NCBI GenBank assembly: GCA_014804775.1 | Contig: JAAUZB010000020.1 | Coordinates: 22,060 to 55,375, forward strand | From: Roseburia sp. | Lineage (GTDB): Bacteria; Bacillota; Clostridia; Lachnospirales; Lachnospiraceae | Direction: 5' to 3' | Length of the DNA stretch: 33,316 nucleotides | Shown: positions 2,918 through 24,992 of the stretch, in pieces | Numbering within the stretch: position 1 is the stretch's first letter | How the letters are laid out: every line of letters starts with the position of its first letter | Translations under genes and position numbers: made by a program | Notes under the pieces: model-generated | Told to the model about the DNA's origin: nothing | The model's database searches: none | Seen by the model: only the letters and a program-made list of their open reading frames with translations

Positions 2918-2988
2918 GCGGGTGTAGTTCAATGGTAGAACACTAGCCTTCCAAGCTAGATACGTGGGTTCGATTCCCATCACCCGCT
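2918..2988 (+). tRNA. tRNA-Gly (anticodon TCC)
   Basis: 71-base cloverleaf. The acceptor stem GCGGGTG pairs with CACCCGC, discriminator T2988. The anticodon stem CTAGC/GCTAG encloses loop CTTCCAA with anticodon TCC at 2950-2952. The T arm contains GGTTCGATTCC. CCA is not encoded. It is the first tRNA after the promoter. Confidence 0.97.
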
Positions 2989-2993
2989 CTTTG

Positions 2994-3015
2994 CTCATAG
3001 TGGATTTACTGTGAG
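2994..3015 (+). other. Hairpin in the tRNA-Gly / tRNA-Arg spacer
   Basis: 8-base-pair stem CTCATAGT (2994-3001) / ACTGTGAG (3008-3015) with one T-G pair and a 6-base loop. It fills most of the 33-base spacer. No T-run follows. Confidence 0.5.
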
Positions 3016-3021
3016 ACAAAT

Positions 3022-3095
<74 letters not shown>

Positions 3096-3101
3096 TTGTG
3101 T

Positions 3102-3176
3102 GGTGGGTATAGCGCAGTTGGTTAGCGCGCCAGATTGTGGCTCTGGAGGTCCAGGGTTCGAATCCCTGTATCCACC
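3102..3176 (+). tRNA. tRNA-His (anticodon GTG)
   Basis: 75 bases counting the encoded G-1 (3102), which faces C73 (3176), the hallmark identity pair of bacterial tRNA-His. The acceptor stem is 3103-3109 / 3169-3175; the anticodon is GTG in loop TTGTGGC; the T arm is CAGGG/CCCTG. CCA is not encoded. Confidence 0.97.
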
Positions 3177-3180
3177 CTTT

Positions 3181-3199
3181 TGTTGCGATAGGCGCAACA
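3181..3199 (+). other. Hairpin in the tRNA-His / tRNA-Gln spacer
   Basis: Perfect 7-base-pair stem TGTTGCG / CGCAACA with a 5-base loop ATAGG. No T-run follows, so termination is unlikely. It is the third hairpin of this kind between or before tRNAs in this cluster. Confidence 0.5.
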
Positions 3200-3211
3200 G
3201 CTATGTTTTGT

Positions 3212-3283
3212 TGGGCTATCGCCAAGCGGTAAGGCACTGGATTTTGATTCCAGCATTCGCAGGTTCGAATCCTGCTAGCCCAG
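3212..3283 (+). tRNA. tRNA-Gln (anticodon TTG)
   Basis: 72-base cloverleaf. The acceptor stem TGGGCTA/TAGCCCA has the U1-A72 pair typical of tRNA-Gln, discriminator G3283. The anticodon stem CTGGA/TCCAG encloses loop TTTTGAT with anticodon TTG at 3244-3246. CCA is not encoded. Confidence 0.97.
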
Positions 3284-3320
3284 CTTGTTTGGCCAAATTC
3301 CGTTTAGAACAAATCATTAT

Positions 3321-3393
3321 GGGGTATTAGCTCAGGTGGTAGAGCACTTGACTTTTAATCAAGTTGTCCGGGGTTCGAATCCCCGATGCCTCA
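3321..3393 (+). tRNA. tRNA-Lys (anticodon TTT)
   Basis: 73-base cloverleaf. Acceptor 3321-3327 pairs with 3386-3392 (two G-T pairs), discriminator A3393. The anticodon stem CTTGA/TCAAG encloses loop CTTTTAA with anticodon TTT at 3354-3356. The T stem CGGGG/CCCCG is complete. It is the last tRNA of the cluster. No convincing terminator follows before the riboswitch 44 bases downstream. Confidence 0.96.
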
Positions 3394-3432: not shown

Positions 3433-3437
3433 ATTAC

Positions 3438-3587
3438 GCAGAGTAGACCCATGTGCGTTAAGTGCCTGCTGAACAGGGAGTTGTCAGCGGGACGAAAAGA
3501 TTTTCTTGCGGTACATGAGTCGCATCCCGCTGCATCAGAGGATTTTCTTGTTATCTCCGATTGTGGTAGAAGTCTGCAAAGGAGGTA
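3438..3587 (+). promoter_or_regulatory. THF (tetrahydrofolate) riboswitch, aptamer plus SD-sequestering hairpin
   Basis: The aptamer (3438-3533) matches the folT-motif THF riboswitch: GAGTAGA at 3441-3447, GCGTTAAGTG at 3455-3464, and a closing P1 of GCAG (3438-3441) with CTGC (3530-3533). P3 is an 8-base-pair stem, 3465-3472 with 3484-3491; its loop carries GGGA, which can pair with TCCC at 3525-3528 to form the known pseudoknot. P2 includes CATGT (3450-3454) with ACATG (3513-3517). Downstream, TATCTCC (3552-3558) can pair over 7 bases with GGAGGTA (3581-3587), masking the folT ribosome binding site. I infer control of translation, with folate repressing uptake. Confidence 0.9.
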
Positions 3588-3594
3588 TTTTTTT

Positions 3595-4149
3595 ATGAAA
3601 AAATTCGTCACTTTGTTCACCGACTCATCGAAAGAACTGAAATCTGTAAGGACAGTTACGGTCTGTGCCATGCTGGCAGCTCTCGCTGTGATACTTGGCA
3701 TGTTTTCCATTCAAATCGGCAATTATATACGGATTGGATTTGCAACTATTCCGAATGGCGTGGTATCCTGCCTGTTCGGTCCGGTAGTTGGCGGTCTTTT
3801 TGCCGGCATGCTGGATGTGCTGAAATACATCGTGAAGCCAACGGGGGCATTTTACCCTCCGATGACTCTGGTGGTGGTTCTGGCGGGAGTACTGTACGGT
3901 CTGTTTTACTATAAGAAGCCGCTCACACTGCCGCGCATATTGGTGGCAAAATTTACTGTCATGCTGATCTGCAACGTGATCTTGAACACGCTTTGCCTTT
4001 CTGATCTTTACGGCAATGCTTTTTTTGCGCTGCTTCCGGCGAGAGCACTCAAAAATCTGATCATGTGGCCGATTGATTCCGTGATTTTTTATACTGTGAC
4101 AAAGATGTTGGGCGGTCGGATATTTGTGAAAAAGGTGGAGATGAAATGA
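3595..4149 (+). CDS. folT: Folate ECF transporter S component FolT
   Basis: 184-residue integral membrane protein that would bind folate and dock to a shared ECF energizing module (EcfA/A'/T, not encoded here). Sequence features of the FolT family are visible: IQIGNYIRIGFATIPN around residues 40-55, LFGPVVGG around 62-69 and VKPTGAFYPP around 81-90, with about five or six hydrophobic segments. I place the start at ATG 3595, which has AAAGGAGG at 3578-3585; a longer in-frame opening from 3451 would run through the riboswitch and is rejected. The upstream THF riboswitch independently supports the folate assignment. The stop codon overlaps the start of the following permease gene (ATGA), so translation is probably coupled. 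Confidence 0.93.
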   Translation: MKKFVTLFTDSSKELKSVRTVTVCAMLAALAVILGMFSIQIGNYIRIGFATIPNGVVSCLFGPVVGGLFAGMLDVLKYIVKPTGAFYPPMTLVVVLAGVLYGLFYYKKPLTLPRILVAKFTVMLICNVILNTLCLSDLYGNAFFALLPARALKNLIMWPIDSVIFYTVTKMLGGRIFVKKVEMK

Positions 4150-21030: not shown

Positions 21031-21154
21031 GGTTTTCACCTCCAAAATGTTCACTTGTTTTTTTTCTTAGGAATACAATCATTAGTACTGTATGTCCTAA
21101 TCCTATTATTTACAAGGGAAAAGATATTATGTTTGGTAAATTATGAGAATTTTC

Positions 21155-21183
21155 TTGACAATAAGTATCGCGGTGAATATACT
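21155..21183 (+). promoter_or_regulatory. Promoter of the ABC exporter leader
   Basis: Perfect -35 TTGACA (21155-21160), 17-base spacer, -10 TATACT (21178-21183). Start near 21190, about 50 bases before the leader ORF and 270 bases before the first transporter gene. Confidence 0.88.
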
Positions 21184-21238
21184 AGGGGATGTGAAATATA
21201 TTTTGATCTAAAATTTTAAAGAAAGAGAGGTAAAAATT

Positions 21239-21373
21239 ATGATTAGACTGGATAAGCATTTCACTTTGACACATAAGATGGATCATAGGATTACCTCGGT
21301 GAGGTCTGTCAGCAGGCATGGACGGTCTGTAGCTTTTTGTGCAGCAGTGCCAGAGCAGAGAGGCGCTATATAG
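21239..21373 (+). CDS. 44-codon leader peptide of the ABC exporter operon
   Basis: ATG 21239 to TAG 21371-21373, preceded by AAAGAGAGG eight bases upstream, and placed between a strong promoter and an intrinsic terminator. The peptide is basic, with many His and Arg (MIRLDKHFTLTHKMDH...), has no membrane segment, and ends PEQRGAI. Its last three codons overlap one arm of a predicted antiterminator (21362-21371). The arrangement resembles bmrB, the leader of the Bacillus bmrCD exporter, although the sequence is not obviously related. Function as a translation sensor is inference. Confidence 0.6.
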   Translation: MIRLDKHFTLTHKMDHRITSVRSVSRHGRSVAFCAAVPEQRGAI

Positions 21374-21410
21374 AGCCAAAAGACAGATTATTTTCTTTGG
21401 ATATGCAGCC
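21362..21410 (+). promoter_or_regulatory. Predicted antiterminator hairpin of the exporter leader
   Basis: GGCGCTATAT (21362-21371) pairs with ATATGCAGCC (21401-21410) apart from a central two-base mismatch, and the stem continues with CCAAA (21376-21380) / TTTGG (21396-21400). The 3' arm shares GCC (21408-21410) with the base of the terminator stem, and the 5' arm includes the end of the leader ORF. A ribosome finishing the ORF would block it; one stalled earlier would not. Confidence 0.5.
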
Positions 21411-21441
21411 CGTGGTGATCGATGATCACCGCGGGCTTTTT
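21408..21441 (+). terminator. Intrinsic terminator (attenuator) before the exporter genes
   Basis: 13-base-pair GC-rich stem, 21408-21420 with 21424-21436, 3-base loop GAT, followed by TTTTT (21437-21441). It lies 20 bases before the first exporter start codon and downstream of the operon's only visible promoter, so expression requires read-through. Confidence 0.9.
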
Positions 21442-21461
21442 GAATTGAAATGGAGGGAAAA

Positions 21462-23180
21462 ATGAAAAAGTTACATACCTATATTGGACGTTACTGGTAC
21501 GGATATCTGTTTGCGATAGGCTCAATGGTAACGGCGATCGTTTTGGACATGATCTATCCGGTCATCACGCAAAAAATTGTGGATGACGTTATTTTAGAAG
21601 GAAAGCTTGAACTTTTGACAAAGCTTTTGGCAGGAATTGTTGCGGTAGGGGTTGGACGTTGTATTTTTGGCTACTGCAAAGAGTATACGTTTGACCGGTT
21701 GGCCTGCGGCATAGGAACACAGATGAGGAAGGATCTGTTTGACCATGTGCAGTCACTGTCTATGAATTATTTTGACAATACCAATACGGGTGAGCTGATG
21801 GCAAGAATCAAGGACGATGTGGATAAGGTCTGGAATGCGCTTGGTTATGTGGGAATGCTCGTGATCGAAGTGGTCATACACGTCAGCTGTGTGCTTTACT
21901 GTATGTTTACGCTGAACTGGAAACTGGCGCTGATACCGGTAGGCACGATGATCGTCTGCGGTGCGGTTGCGATCGTCATGGAGCGGAAGCTGGATAAGAT
22001 TTACGAGGATATCAGTGAGGAGAATGCTGTGCTGACAACGGTTGCAGAGGAAAACCTCGCAGGCGTGCGCACGGTAAAGGCGTTTGCCAGAGAGAAGCAT
22101 GAGATAGAAAAATTTTTATCTCACAATAACCGCTATTATGAACTTAACATTTCCCAGTCCAGGGTACTTGTAAAATATTATCCGCTGTTTCAGTTTGTGG
22201 GAAAGGCGTTGCCGGTGTGTATGACTGTGATAGGCGGGATCGCCGTTATGAATCAGAATATGACGCTGGGTGCGCTGGTGGCATTTGTGGAATACAGCAG
22301 AAATTGTACATGGCCGATGGAGATGCTGGGCTGGCTGACGAACGACGTATCTTCTGCCGTTGCCTCCTACCGGAAAATACGAAAGATCTACGGAGAGCAG
22401 GCACAGATCCGGGATCAGGAAAAACCGATTCTCATTGACAGCGTGGAAGGAGAAATCCGGTTTGAGAATGTGTCTTTTGCGCTGGAAGGAAAAGAGATTC
22501 TGCACGACATCAGTTTTACGGTTCCTGCGGGAGGAACGCTGGGAATTATGGGAGCGACAGGTTCCGGCAAATCTTCCATGATCAATCTGCTACAGCGTTT
22601 TTACGATGTGACGGAGGGGACGGTTGCGGTAGATGGCGTGGATGTGCGGAAGATGTCGTTAAAGCAGCTTAGGAGCAGCATTGCCGTGGTATTGCAGGAC
22701 GTGTTTTTGTTTTCCGACACGATAGAGGAGAATATAAAGATGGGGCAGCGCACGAGCCTGCCGATGGAAGAGGTGCGGCTGGCAGCAGAGCATGCACAGG
22801 CGAGAGGGTTTATTGAAAAGATGGATGAGCAGTATAAGACGGTCATAGGGGAGCGCGGTGTCGGCCTGTCCGGCGGGCAGAAACAGAGGATCAGCATTGC
22901 ACGCGCCATGGCAAAACACAGTCCGATCCTTGTGCTGGATGACTCCACCTCTGCGCTTGACATGGAGACGGAGCACGAGATTCAAAAGACGTTAAATGAG
23001 TTGTCCGGCACGACAAAGGTGATCATTGCACACCGTATTTCTGCGGTTCGGCATGCGGATGAGATCATATATCTGGAGGACGGAAAGATTGCGGAGCGCG
23101 GAACGCATGAAGAATTGCTTGCGCGAAAGGGATTGTATTATGACACCTATATGGCACAGTACGGCTCTTTTTCCGCCTAA
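21462..23180 (+). CDS. Heterodimeric ABC exporter half-transporter, degenerate-site subunit
   Basis: 572-residue half-transporter: six-helix membrane domain (about 1-310) and nucleotide-binding domain (about 335-565). Walker A GATGSGKS is at 364-371, signature LSGGQ at 469-473. Walker B ends in LDDSTSALD, with Asp494 where the catalytic Glu normally sits. That substitution is the hallmark of the non-hydrolysing site in heterodimeric exporters such as BmrC, LmrC and TM287. The start is ATG 21462, five bases after GGAGG; an ATG at 21450 overlaps the site. It is followed 21 bases later by the partner subunit. Multidrug or toxic-compound export is inferred from class and from the attenuated leader. 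Confidence 0.93.
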   Translation: MKKLHTYIGRYWYGYLFAIGSMVTAIVLDMIYPVITQKIVDDVILEGKLELLTKLLAGIVAVGVGRCIFGYCKEYTFDRLACGIGTQMRKDLFDHVQSLSMNYFDNTNTGELMARIKDDVDKVWNALGYVGMLVIEVVIHVSCVLYCMFTLNWKLALIPVGTMIVCGAVAIVMERKLDKIYEDISEENAVLTTVAEENLAGVRTVKAFAREKHEIEKFLSHNNRYYELNISQSRVLVKYYPLFQFVGKALPVCMTVIGGIAVMNQNMTLGALVAFVEYSRNCTWPMEMLGWLTNDVSSAVASYRKIRKIYGEQAQIRDQEKPILIDSVEGEIRFENVSFALEGKEILHDISFTVPAGGTLGIMGATGSGKSSMINLLQRFYDVTEGTVAVDGVDVRKMSLKQLRSSIAVVLQDVFLFSDTIEENIKMGQRTSLPMEEVRLAAEHAQARGFIEKMDEQYKTVIGERGVGLSGGQKQRISIARAMAKHSPILVLDDSTSALDMETEHEIQKTLNELSGTTKVIIAHRISAVRHADEIIYLEDGKIAERGTHEELLARKGLYYDTYMAQYGSFSA

Positions 23181-23201
23181 AGAATATCAATGGAGGTTAG
23201 T

Positions 23202-24992
23202 ATGGCAGTCAATTCATTTCGTGAAGACGAATTTATGGAGAATACCGACAAAAAGAAGATTTTGCGCCGGCTATTGTCCTATTTAATGAAATATAAGGGG
23301 ACTCTTGCGGCAGTTCTTTTGTGTATGGGAGTGACGGTCGCAATTTCGCTTGTCAATCCTCTACTGATCGAGGAGGCGATCGATCACTATATTGCAGAGT
23401 CTGATTTCTACGGTCTGGCAAGGCTCGGTGTATTTGCGCTGGCGCTGAATATTATTTTTATCATTATGGTAAAGGTCAGAATGTATGTGATGTCAGTAGT
23501 GTCAAATAAGATATTGCTGCAGATCCGTCAGGATCTGTACGAACACATCCAGACGCTGTCATTTTCCTTTTTTGACAGCAGACCGACAGGAAAAATCCTT
23601 GCGAGGATCATCGGGGACGTCAACTCCCTGAAGGATGTGCTGGTCAATACGGTAACGACTCTGATACCGGAGTTTGTGACGGTTGCCGGGGTAATGTGCA
23701 TTATGTTTATCAAAGATGCAAGGCTTGCCGCGGCGTCGCTGTCCACGATCCCGATCATGATGGCGGGCATCTGGCTTGTGCAGAGGGCATCGCACAGGCG
23801 ATGGCAGATTTTTCGCAAAAAATCGTCCAATTTAAATGCCTATGTGCACGAGGATGTTGCGGGGATTAATGTCGTGCAGAGTTTTGGCGCGGAGGATGAG
23901 ACAAAGGAGGTTTTTGGAAAGCTGGCGGATGAGCACAGGGATGCATTTGCGGATGCGGTTTTGTATGCCGATATGTTTGGACCGGTCATTGATTTTTGCT
24001 GGGGAATCGGCGCTATGATGCTTTATCTGGTCGGCGTCCGTTTTCTGGGTGTCGAAAAAGTCTCAGTAGGTCTTTTGGTGGCATTTGGAACCTATATCAA
24101 TATGTTCTGGAACCCGATCATGAATCTGAGCAACTTTTACAATAATCTGGTGACGAATTTGACGGCTGCGGAGCGGATCTTTGATATTCTGGATACAGAA
24201 GCCGATATTGTGGATGCCGACGACGTGCAGGAACTGCCGGAGATTCTCGGGAAGGTAGAATTTTCACATGTCAGTTTTACTTATGATAGGGGAACTTCTG
24301 CAGAGACAAAGGTGCTTGAGGATGTGAGCTTTTCGGTGCAGCCCGGCGAAACGGTCGCGCTTGTGGGACCGACCGGGGCGGGAAAGACAACGATCGTAAA
24401 TCTGCTCAGTCGCTTTTATGATATTGAGGACGGTCAGATTCTGGTGGATGGGTACGATTTGACGAAGGTGTCCATGCACAGCTTAAGAAGACAGATGGGT
24501 GTCATGACGCAGGACAATTTTATTTTCCACGGAACGGTCCGGGACAATATCCTTTACGGAAAACTGGATGCAACAGAGGAAGAGATGATCGCTGCTGCAA
24601 AGGCAGTGAATGCGCATGATTTTATCATGAAGATGGAAAAGGGTTACGATACTGAGCTAAAGGAGCACGGCGCGGGACTTTCCATCGGACAGCGCCAGCT
24701 GATCGCATTTGCGAGGACGATGATCTCTATGCCCAAAATCCTTATTCTGGATGAGGCGACATCAAGTATTGACACGCATACTGAGATCCTGGTGCAGAAG
24801 GGAATCGAGGCGCTGCTTTCCGGCAGAACCAGTTTTGCCATTGCCCACAGACTCTCCACGATCCAGAATGCAGACCGCATTTTTGTCATTGACGAGGGCG
24901 GCATTTTGGAGCAGGGAAGCCCTAAAGAATTGATGGAGAGAAAGGGCGCATATTACAGACTATATATGAAGCAGTTTGAGGGCGTGCAGTAG
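23202..24992 (+). CDS. Heterodimeric ABC exporter half-transporter, catalytic subunit
   Basis: 596-residue partner half-transporter with a cytoplasmic N-terminal extension (about 40 residues), a six-helix membrane domain and a nucleotide-binding domain. Walker A GPTGAGKT is at 389-396; Walker B is canonical, LILDE with catalytic Glu518. The signature is LSIGQ at 493-497, slightly off the LSGGQ consensus. This combination (normal Walker B, weakened signature) is what the catalytic subunit of BmrD/LmrD/TM288-type heterodimers shows. The start is ATG 23202 with TGGAGG (23191-23196) five bases upstream; an earlier ATG at 23190 overlaps the site. No hairpin terminator follows before the pullulanase promoter. 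Confidence 0.93.
   Translation: MAVNSFREDEFMENTDKKKILRRLLSYLMKYKGTLAAVLLCMGVTVAISLVNPLLIEEAIDHYIAESDFYGLARLGVFALALNIIFIIMVKVRMYVMSVVSNKILLQIRQDLYEHIQTLSFSFFDSRPTGKILARIIGDVNSLKDVLVNTVTTLIPEFVTVAGVMCIMFIKDARLAAASLSTIPIMMAGIWLVQRASHRRWQIFRKKSSNLNAYVHEDVAGINVVQSFGAEDETKEVFGKLADEHRDAFADAVLYADMFGPVIDFCWGIGAMMLYLVGVRFLGVEKVSVGLLVAFGTYINMFWNPIMNLSNFYNNLVTNLTAAERIFDILDTEADIVDADDVQELPEILGKVEFSHVSFTYDRGTSAETKVLEDVSFSVQPGETVALVGPTGAGKTTIVNLLSRFYDIEDGQILVDGYDLTKVSMHSLRRQMGVMTQDNFIFHGTVRDNILYGKLDATEEEMIAAAKAVNAHDFIMKMEKGYDTELKEHGAGLSIGQRQLIAFARTMISMPKILILDEATSSIDTHTEILVQKGIEALLSGRTSFAIAHRLSTIQNADRIFVIDEGGILEQGSPKELMERKGAYYRLYMKQFEGVQ

Follow-up and report, generated by a model that had tools for sequence, protein, structure and literature searches.

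A predicted ribosome-controlled attenuator with its Shine-Dalgarno sequence as a switch arm precedes an ABC exporter gene pair in Roseburia and its relatives

The leader and the exporter genes

The stretch of DNA analysed here, called the window, covers 33,316 nucleotides of a Roseburia sp. contig (JAAUZB010000020.1, forward strand positions 22,060 to 55,375, assembly GCA_014804775.1), and positions are counted from its first letter. It contains two adjacent genes for ABC half-transporters, preceded by a leader. Based on the sequence and on modelled folds, we consider it likely that this leader is a ribosome-controlled transcription attenuator of the 1:2/2:3/3:4 kind. Its arm 1 would be the Shine-Dalgarno (SD) sequence of a short open reading frame (ORF), and its arm 2 an anti-SD sequence in codons 17-20 of the same ORF. 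The features of the locus are as follows.

21155-21183, + strand: sigma-70-type promoter, TTGACA-17-TATACT, 11 of 12 consensus matches in a promoter scan
21227-21233, + strand: segment 1, the SD sequence GAGGUAA of the leader ORF and predicted 5' arm of the anti-antiterminator 1:2
21237-21244, + strand: extension of this 5' arm across the start codon (UUAUGAUU), with partner 21281-21288, in the minimum free energy (MFE) fold of the free leader
21239-21373, + strand: leader ORF of 44 codons, start MIRLDKHFTLTHKMDHRITSVRSV, behind GAGGTAA
21291-21297, + strand: segment 2, the anti-SD sequence UUACCUC in Ile18-Thr19-Ser20
21304-21383, + strand: intervening structure GGUCUGUC...GACAGAUU between segments 2 and 3, in predicted 2:3 folds with segment 1 removed
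21407-21441, + strand: intrinsic terminator 3:4 and T tract, stem 21407-21437 with 14 pairs
21410-21420, + strand: segment 3, within the terminator 5' arm, CCG.GGUGAUC pairing with GAUUACC.CGG (21289-21299)
21450-23180, + strand: ABC half-transporter A, start perhaps at 21462 behind GGAGGG
23190-24992, + strand: ABC half-transporter B, Walker B LDEA, altered signature LSIGQ

The promoter, the 44-codon ORF, the terminator and the two half-transporter genes had all been named in an earlier, sequence-only reading of this DNA and were found again here. The terminator has an energy of -26.0 kcal/mol and none of 200 shuffles of 21380-21445 was equally stable, while the leader as a whole (21190-21445) was more stable than 200 of 200 shuffles (z -4.28). 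The ORF translates as MIRLDKHFTLTHKMDHRITSVRSVSRHGRSVAFCAAVPEQRGAI; its codons 18-20 read AUU ACC UCG, and 24 codons follow Ser20. Segment 2 is assigned two roles, as the 3' arm of 1:2 and as the 5' arm of the antiterminator 2:3. A promoter, a short ORF with an SD sequence and an intrinsic terminator ahead of a gene are expected of a ribosome-mediated attenuator, and all of them are present at this locus. The element matched no Rfam family (none at or above the gathering threshold for the whole stretch, none up to an E value of 10 for 21150-21460), and neither a DNA search nor a model, which gave one match, found a second copy of it in its own genome.

Both downstream ORFs contain ABC_membrane and ABC_tran domains, and TM_0288 (for both halves) and YheH, which is BmrD (for half B), are among the best 60 PDB matches listed. 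Half A combines a degenerate Walker B motif, LDDS instead of LDE, with the canonical signature LSGGQ. Such a combination, a degenerate Walker B motif in one half and an altered signature in its partner, is characteristic of heterodimeric exporters in which one ATP site is degenerate. Judged by these motifs, as in the earlier assignment, halves A and B are predicted to form a heterodimeric ABC exporter with one degenerate ATP site, of the TM287/288 and BmrCD kind.

Leaders at related exporter loci

Related loci were taken as the best 80 from a genome-contig scan with half A (61-85% identity), which together with the window gave 81; their titles are mostly Lachnospiraceae, Roseburia, Eisenbergiella and Lachnotalea among them. 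Six loci with too little upstream sequence were left out: L037, L044, L049, L055, L056 (truncated gene) and L085. An SD sequence, a short ORF, segment 2 and a terminator were present at 65 of the 75 usable loci, window included, which upholds the earlier proposal of an attenuator with a leader ORF before a heterodimeric ABC exporter. In 56 of the 65, a short ORF behind an SD sequence carries the peptide motif [IVFLA]-[TAIV]-[SPA] (57 were picked in this manner, and L087 was discarded as spurious); the other nine, with another frame or a variant base, were added by DNA match. Eight more leaders found by pattern gave a set of 73, and 18 from matches to the pattern or to model R1, described below, gave a set of 91, outside of which stand L187 (arm missed by the pattern), L193 and L178 (recognised late). 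The pattern SD-ATG-TTACCTC occurred in 31 of 299 genomes (38 places; reversed control: 40), and since the reversed control is as frequent, lone pattern matches were accepted only beside a terminator and a gene.

The first codon of segment 2 ranges from 13 to 54 in the 73 leaders, with a median of 21, and the ORF typically closes 6 codons later (median, stop included). A hairpin of -8 kcal/mol or lower with a T-rich tail follows all 73, a count that has no shuffled control, and in 72 of them, the window among these, the terminator starts 3' of the leader stop codon. Of 72 leaders, 43 have an upstream promoter-like site that matches at least 10 of 12 consensus positions; a single base shuffle gave 4 of 72.

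Segment 2 is conserved as nucleotides and in three frames

The ITS motif is AUU ACC UCN, the complement of the SD sequence GAGGUAA(U) and of the terminator 5' arm, with CCGUGGUAAU as the common form. Ile is encoded by ATT in 44 of 44 cases, Thr by ACC in 39 of 39 and Ser by TCN in 55 of 55 in the 56 leaders, compared with 46%, 33% and 67% of the respective codons in their exporter genes, although kinship among these leaders makes binomial values for the codon use too small. A peptide under selection would not shun synonymous codons; as judged from the codon use, it is the nucleotides that are conserved, not the amino acids. The core 1:2 helix is paired in 391 of 392 cells in these 56 leaders, which were chosen by SD sequence and peptide motif, and in 629 of 637 cells in the 91 leaders. 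Double changes are seen in the 91 at three of the seven pairs, in eight cells: one A-U to G-C, four U-A to C-G, two of these in sister loci, and three A-U to G-C. When counted on 40 leaders, 99.3% of the 1:2 cells are paired, and a shift of 1-3 columns lowers this to at most 57%. The observed pairing percentage, number of double changes and covariation score are reached by 1 of 500 shuffles, and the number of pair types by 82 of 500. In 72 of 73 leaders, segment 1 has its best complement in segment 2 (about 11% expected by chance), and the mean pairing of a segment 2 with its own segment 1 is higher than with partners permuted among loci, a value that 0 of 2000 permutations reach.

The three frames of segment 2 are used by 79, 7 and 5 of the 91 leaders, and at least eight frame changes are required on a tree of 86 exporter halves (L116, L123, L128, L133 and L173 are off this tree). 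Readings in other frames include xELPPx or similar in L076, L089, L090 and L104 and AYLP or ACLP in L096, L097 and L107. These frames bear on whether the leader could encode an arrest peptide. ErmCL-type leaders stall the ribosome with a drug, and here the xITS motif would do so, in which case its amino acids should be conserved. In favour of this reading, 65 of 73 leaders have segment 2 in the ITS frame (ITS, FTS, VTS, IAS, IIS and similar), and 39 of 73 have K, N or R at position 3. However, synonymous codons are entirely lacking, 12 of the 91 leaders use another frame (ELPP, AYLP, FLPR and similar), L038 gives up the serine (ITP) while its SD sequence, GGGGUAA, preserves the pairing, and the remainder of the peptide is without apparent conservation across leaders. 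We therefore consider an arrest-peptide attenuator to be improbable.

The 1:2/2:3/3:4 layout is that of trp, and a shortage of an amino acid might likewise be sensed by the codons before segment 2. Asn is the most frequent residue in this region (14.9% in the 73 leaders, with Lys at 10.3%, Pro at 0.6% and Trp at 0.4%), and three His codons are found among the first 16 codons in the window. Yet the commonest residue at any of positions 2-8 occurs in no more than 20 of 73 leaders, and the targets are exporters and an RsgA paralog, with no biosynthesis genes, and we regard an amino-acid attenuator as highly improbable. The residue bias perhaps reflects an A-rich, unstructured loop.

Segment 2 also pairs with the terminator arm

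For segment 3, too, segment 2 provides the best complement more often than the roughly 11% expected by chance, namely in 51 of 73 leaders, and the mean 2:3 pairing within loci exceeds that of permuted partners (0 of 2000 permutations reach it). The 2:3 hexamer is fully paired (six of six) in 48 of 73 leaders, compared with 4.1 for scrambled hexamers. Where segment 2 starts with T (TTTACC), the opposite base is A in 7 of 14 leaders (T in 2, C in 1, unreadable in 4), and where it starts with A (ATTACC and kin), the opposite base is T in 44 of 59 (A in 4, C in 3, G in 1, unreadable in 7). In L065, ATTGC is paired with GCAAT. The terminator loops of L179 and L186 are AGTCTGTGTGACT, unlike the usual GGTAAT form, and in L179 segment 2 may instead pair with the 3' arm of the terminator.

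The 73 leaders were folded up to the terminator loop, that is, before the 3' arm exists. With a free 5' end, the mean probability of 2:1 pairing was 0.83 (above 0.5 in 62 of 73) and that of segment 2 with segment 3 only 0.08, whereas removal of the RNA through a ribosome at codon 6 gave a mean 2:3 probability of 0.66 (above 0.5 in 63 of 73). Scrambling of segment 2 lowered these probabilities to 0.21 for 2:1 (13 of 73) and 0.25 for 2:3 (15 of 73). For the window leader, the 2:1 probability was 0.96 when free, with a helix of 21227-21233/21291-21297 plus 21237-21244 (start codon)/21281-21288, and the 2:3 probability was 0.85 with segment 1 masked, the duplex of 21289-21295/21414-21420 and 21297-21299/21410-21412 having -15.6 kcal/mol. 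In the MFE folds of the RNA to 21425, 2:3 is present with a ribosome at codons 3, 6, 9 and 12 and gone at codon 15. The pairings 1:2, 2:3 and 3:4 are thus mutually exclusive in the models, and the earlier expectation that a stalled ribosome should favour read-through agrees with the predicted folds.

The antiterminator itself had been placed elsewhere, in a hairpin of 21362-21371 with 21401-21410, extended by CCAAA/UUUGG, which a ribosome at the stop codon would block. This pairing can form and would involve the stop codon as well as the terminator base, but it reaches -8.0 kcal/mol (21362-21410) against -15.6 for the 2:3 duplex, and the stretch that contains it, 21340-21412, is no more stable than shuffles (equalled or surpassed by 43 of 200, z -0.85) and adopts a different structure as its MFE fold. 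The ORF tail past segment 2, moreover, varies from 5 to 35 codons and appears unrelated by eye. An antiterminator over the stop codon is in our opinion unlikely; the conserved alternative pairing is instead that of codons 17-20 with the terminator 5' arm, and the sequence-only reading had missed the anti-antiterminator, in which codons 17-20 are paired with the SD sequence of the leader.

A further possibility is mere translational self-repression, in which segment 2 would shut the leader SD sequence, the terminator would end a short RNA and the exporter genes would depend on constitutive read-through. In its favour, the 1:2 pairing (629 of 637 cells) is better supported than 2:3 (best complement in 51 of 73). 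This account has little chance of being correct when set against the excess of 2:3 over scrambled (0.66 compared with 0.25) and swapped controls, the co-occurrence of leader, terminator and exporter at 65 of 75 loci and the promoter scan, which listed no promoter-like + strand site between 21244 and 21700.

Reach of the element and other targets

A model of 1:2, R1, matched 37 of 299 Lachnospiraceae genomes at an E value of 0.01 or lower and, in a sample of 391 genomes from the class, 21, window included, and both counts are lower bounds, as only 10-14 candidates were scored per genome. Repeats of already known loci were removed, and matches were judged by their arms and by the look of the first residues of the downstream ORF. 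Thirty loci were examined among the Lachnospiraceae matches; 11 further places lay outside, except repeats of known loci. Exporter-like ORFs follow 26 of the 30, among them L178, a member recognised late, and L168, which was counted since its leader is that of L103; RsgA follows one (L173) and an unclear ORF another (L164), while L177 and L184 look like chance matches. At 20 other places in the class, four matches precede exporter-like ORFs, namely L171 and L187 from the same family and L193 and L194 from two other families; the remaining 16 look like chance. L193 has the SD sequence GGAGGUAGG and segment 2 CCUAUCUC in the ITS frame (NPIS). Both L193 and L194 are divergent members that precede exporter-like ORFs and combine the SD sequence GAGGUAGG with an arm 2 to match, suggesting that more members beyond Lachnospiraceae would be found by a model trained on these two.

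RsgA is a ribosome-assembly GTPase. In three genomes from three genera (G042, G047 and G129; leaders L116, L123 and L138), a second RsgA gene is located behind the same anti-SD leader and terminator. The assignment is based on a domain search with L123, and PF03193 matched all three. The frames linked to the element have 333-352 amino acids, and the other RsgA of each of these genomes, with 295-297 amino acids, is encoded elsewhere. The scan found no such leader at the second RsgA copies of G144 and G024. In G285, an anti-SD leader in another frame (L128, MKGLNIAGKLNILPRESDR) precedes a gene for a PF09818 P-loop ATPase, and a place in a further genome (G073:C39:60819-60879) looks similar to this leader.

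When the leader peptide was searched in the 299 genomes, matches at an E value of 1 or lower were obtained in 58, own genome included, the best other match having an E value of 0.0043. The best few peptide matches, short frames in three other genomes (L003, L006 and L011), are mutually alike and have a weak likeness to the tail of the window ORF, VRSV...CAAVP (21299-21370), outside the switch arms. At a distance from the leader, the window also contains a THF riboswitch (RF01831, 90.4 bits, 3437-3534) at the start of an ORF at 3451-4149, with five tRNA genes ahead of it at 2918-3393.

Discussion

We propose that the leader senses the position of the ribosome, with the peptide being of little importance. 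Without a ribosome, arm 2 would pair with arm 1, the terminator 3:4 would form and the exporter would be off. Under a normal flow of ribosomes, arm 2 would be overrun, after which either 1:2 would reclose or arm 2 would stay covered, so that the terminator forms and the exporter again stays off. A ribosome slowed or stalled between the start codon and approximately codon 12 would cover arm 1 and leave arm 2 free to catch the emerging arm 3, by which the terminator would be pre-empted and the exporter genes transcribed. The arms, their conservation, their independence of frame and their mutual exclusion in folding come from sequence and computation, and from these we infer termination in vivo, the ribosome stall and the inducer. 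As no fixed peptide is needed, the switch would read any slowing before segment 2. It is most likely a sensor of translation-inhibiting drugs, a signal that would be in line with the targets, an exporter and an RsgA paralog.

Several observations weigh against this proposal. No recognisable leader was found at 10 of the 75 loci (L032, L043, L046, L048, L063, L069, L071, L086, L087 and L094; L063 and L069 have unclear arms and were scored as lacking one). L032 is the nearest exporter relative among the loci kept (85% identity) and has no leader within 650 bases upstream, indicating that the element can be absent; another coding frame extends up to the exporter gene at this locus. The picking step itself is without a chance control. 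A DNA match supplied 9 of the 73 leaders and a pattern another 8, and 18 of the 91 were taken from matches to the pattern or to R1, so that in these leaders the 1:2 pairing is partly given by construction. Phylogenetically independent pairs on the exporter tree lie mostly in the predicted direction (2.2 versus 0.2, 1.7 versus 0 and 1.7 versus 0), but they number only 3 to 5, too few to reach significance, with a median p of 0.5. In the swap tests, the own pair lies above the mean of the others in only 49 of 73 leaders for 1:2 and 52 of 73 for 2:3, and the best partner of segment 2 is one other than segment 3 in 22 of 73. Swapped partners already give full 2:3 hexamers in 36 leaders on average (maximum 44) compared with 48 for the own partners, and the 2:3 signal is therefore mostly shared conservation and to a smaller part locus-specific. 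MFE folds of the full-length RNA (to 21445) contain the terminator, so the antiterminator must win kinetically. A kinetic choice between folds is also made in trp. Finally, due to the 24 codons past segment 2 in the window, a ribosome at the stop codon leaves segment 2 uncovered and the off state would rest on the reclosing of 1:2.

The mechanism class is already known from bmrB, vmlR, cplR and hflXr. Similar to the present leader, bmrB of the Bacillus subtilis bmrBCD operon is a translated leader ORF with a predicted terminator, antiterminator and anti-antiterminator, located before a heterodimeric multidrug ABC exporter (PMC4191407). It is induced by chloramphenicol, erythromycin and lincomycin, its expression is low and uninducible without the start codon, and the role of its anti-antiterminator was termed unclear (PMC4191407). 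The terminator and three predicted structures of bmrB lie inside a 53-codon ORF with a GTG start (nt 60-162; PMC4191407), whereas the layout of the present leader has the terminator 3' of the stop codon and the SD sequence as a switch arm. The label 'bmrB-like' given to the window leader earlier consequently fits the kind of mechanism, but not the anatomy. In the B. subtilis vmlR leader, an antibiotic-stalled ribosome on an upstream ORF (uORF) encoding Met-Ile-Asn prevents the anti-antiterminator and favours the antiterminator, as we propose here; in contrast to our leader, this tripeptide uORF lies in a hairpin bulge, its SD sequence is described as single-stranded before the hairpin and the target is an ABC-F factor (PMC9226507). 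The nearest system in logic is the cplR leader of Clostridioides difficile, which is likewise clostridial and has a uORF (Met-Arg-Ile) sequestered by a 5' hairpin; it differs in its three-codon uORF and in its target, an ABC-F factor (PMC10201436). Its induction by lincomycin and retapamulin is abolished by loss of the start codon; a figure legend names an anti-SD element, and the text places the SD sequence of the cplR gene itself in the terminator hairpin (PMC10201436). The off state that we predict in the absence of translation agrees with bmrB and cplR, in both of which start-codon loss abolishes induction.

Small-ORF attenuators also precede HflX-type ribosome factors, namely rli80-hflXr in Listeria (PMC6310831) and uORFC-6-1 before hflX (PMC8632094). 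In Listeria, hflXr is a second copy that is induced by drugs (PMC6310831), similar in this to the RsgA paralog described here, but these leaders have a 14-codon ORF with the RLR motif of macrolide leaders, whereas no fixed peptide motif is seen in ours (PMC6310831, PMC8632094). For the ABC transporter gene pair patAB of Streptococcus pneumoniae, an attenuator with three hairpins has been predicted, with the differences that the main text of that report contains neither 'ORF' nor 'open reading frame' and that the inducers are fluoroquinolones (PMC4319486). 'ABC-leaders' of other kinds were listed in 2010, one of them before a multidrug export operon of lactobacilli (PMC2965389). From drug-dependent arrest-peptide leaders of the erm and msr kind, the present element differs in that it has no conserved arrest-site peptide, but conserved nucleotides read in three frames. 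Among the matches listed from the open-access literature on such attenuators, titles and abstract beginnings do not describe it, and we take the SD/anti-SD layout with a frame-free segment 2, as well as the link to RsgA, to be new.

Taken together, we tentatively suggest, with slightly less than even confidence, that the element is a peptide-blind gauge of ribosome flow that works in any frame, responds to any inhibitor or stress slowing early elongation and controls a small translation-stress regulon. This regulon would comprise a BmrCD-type exporter, across Lachnospiraceae as well as outside this family, together with a second RsgA in some genera. If this is true, unrelated genes share one sensor. 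In parallel with HflXr, the presence of the element before an RsgA paralog points to a possible role in protecting ribosomes. The conserved 'peptide' motif would be a disguised RNA arm, and anyone looking for arrest peptides through conserved amino acids would misinterpret such a leader. The proposed switch would provide a concrete, testable route by which ribosome-targeting drugs may switch on a multidrug-type exporter in a large family of gut bacteria.

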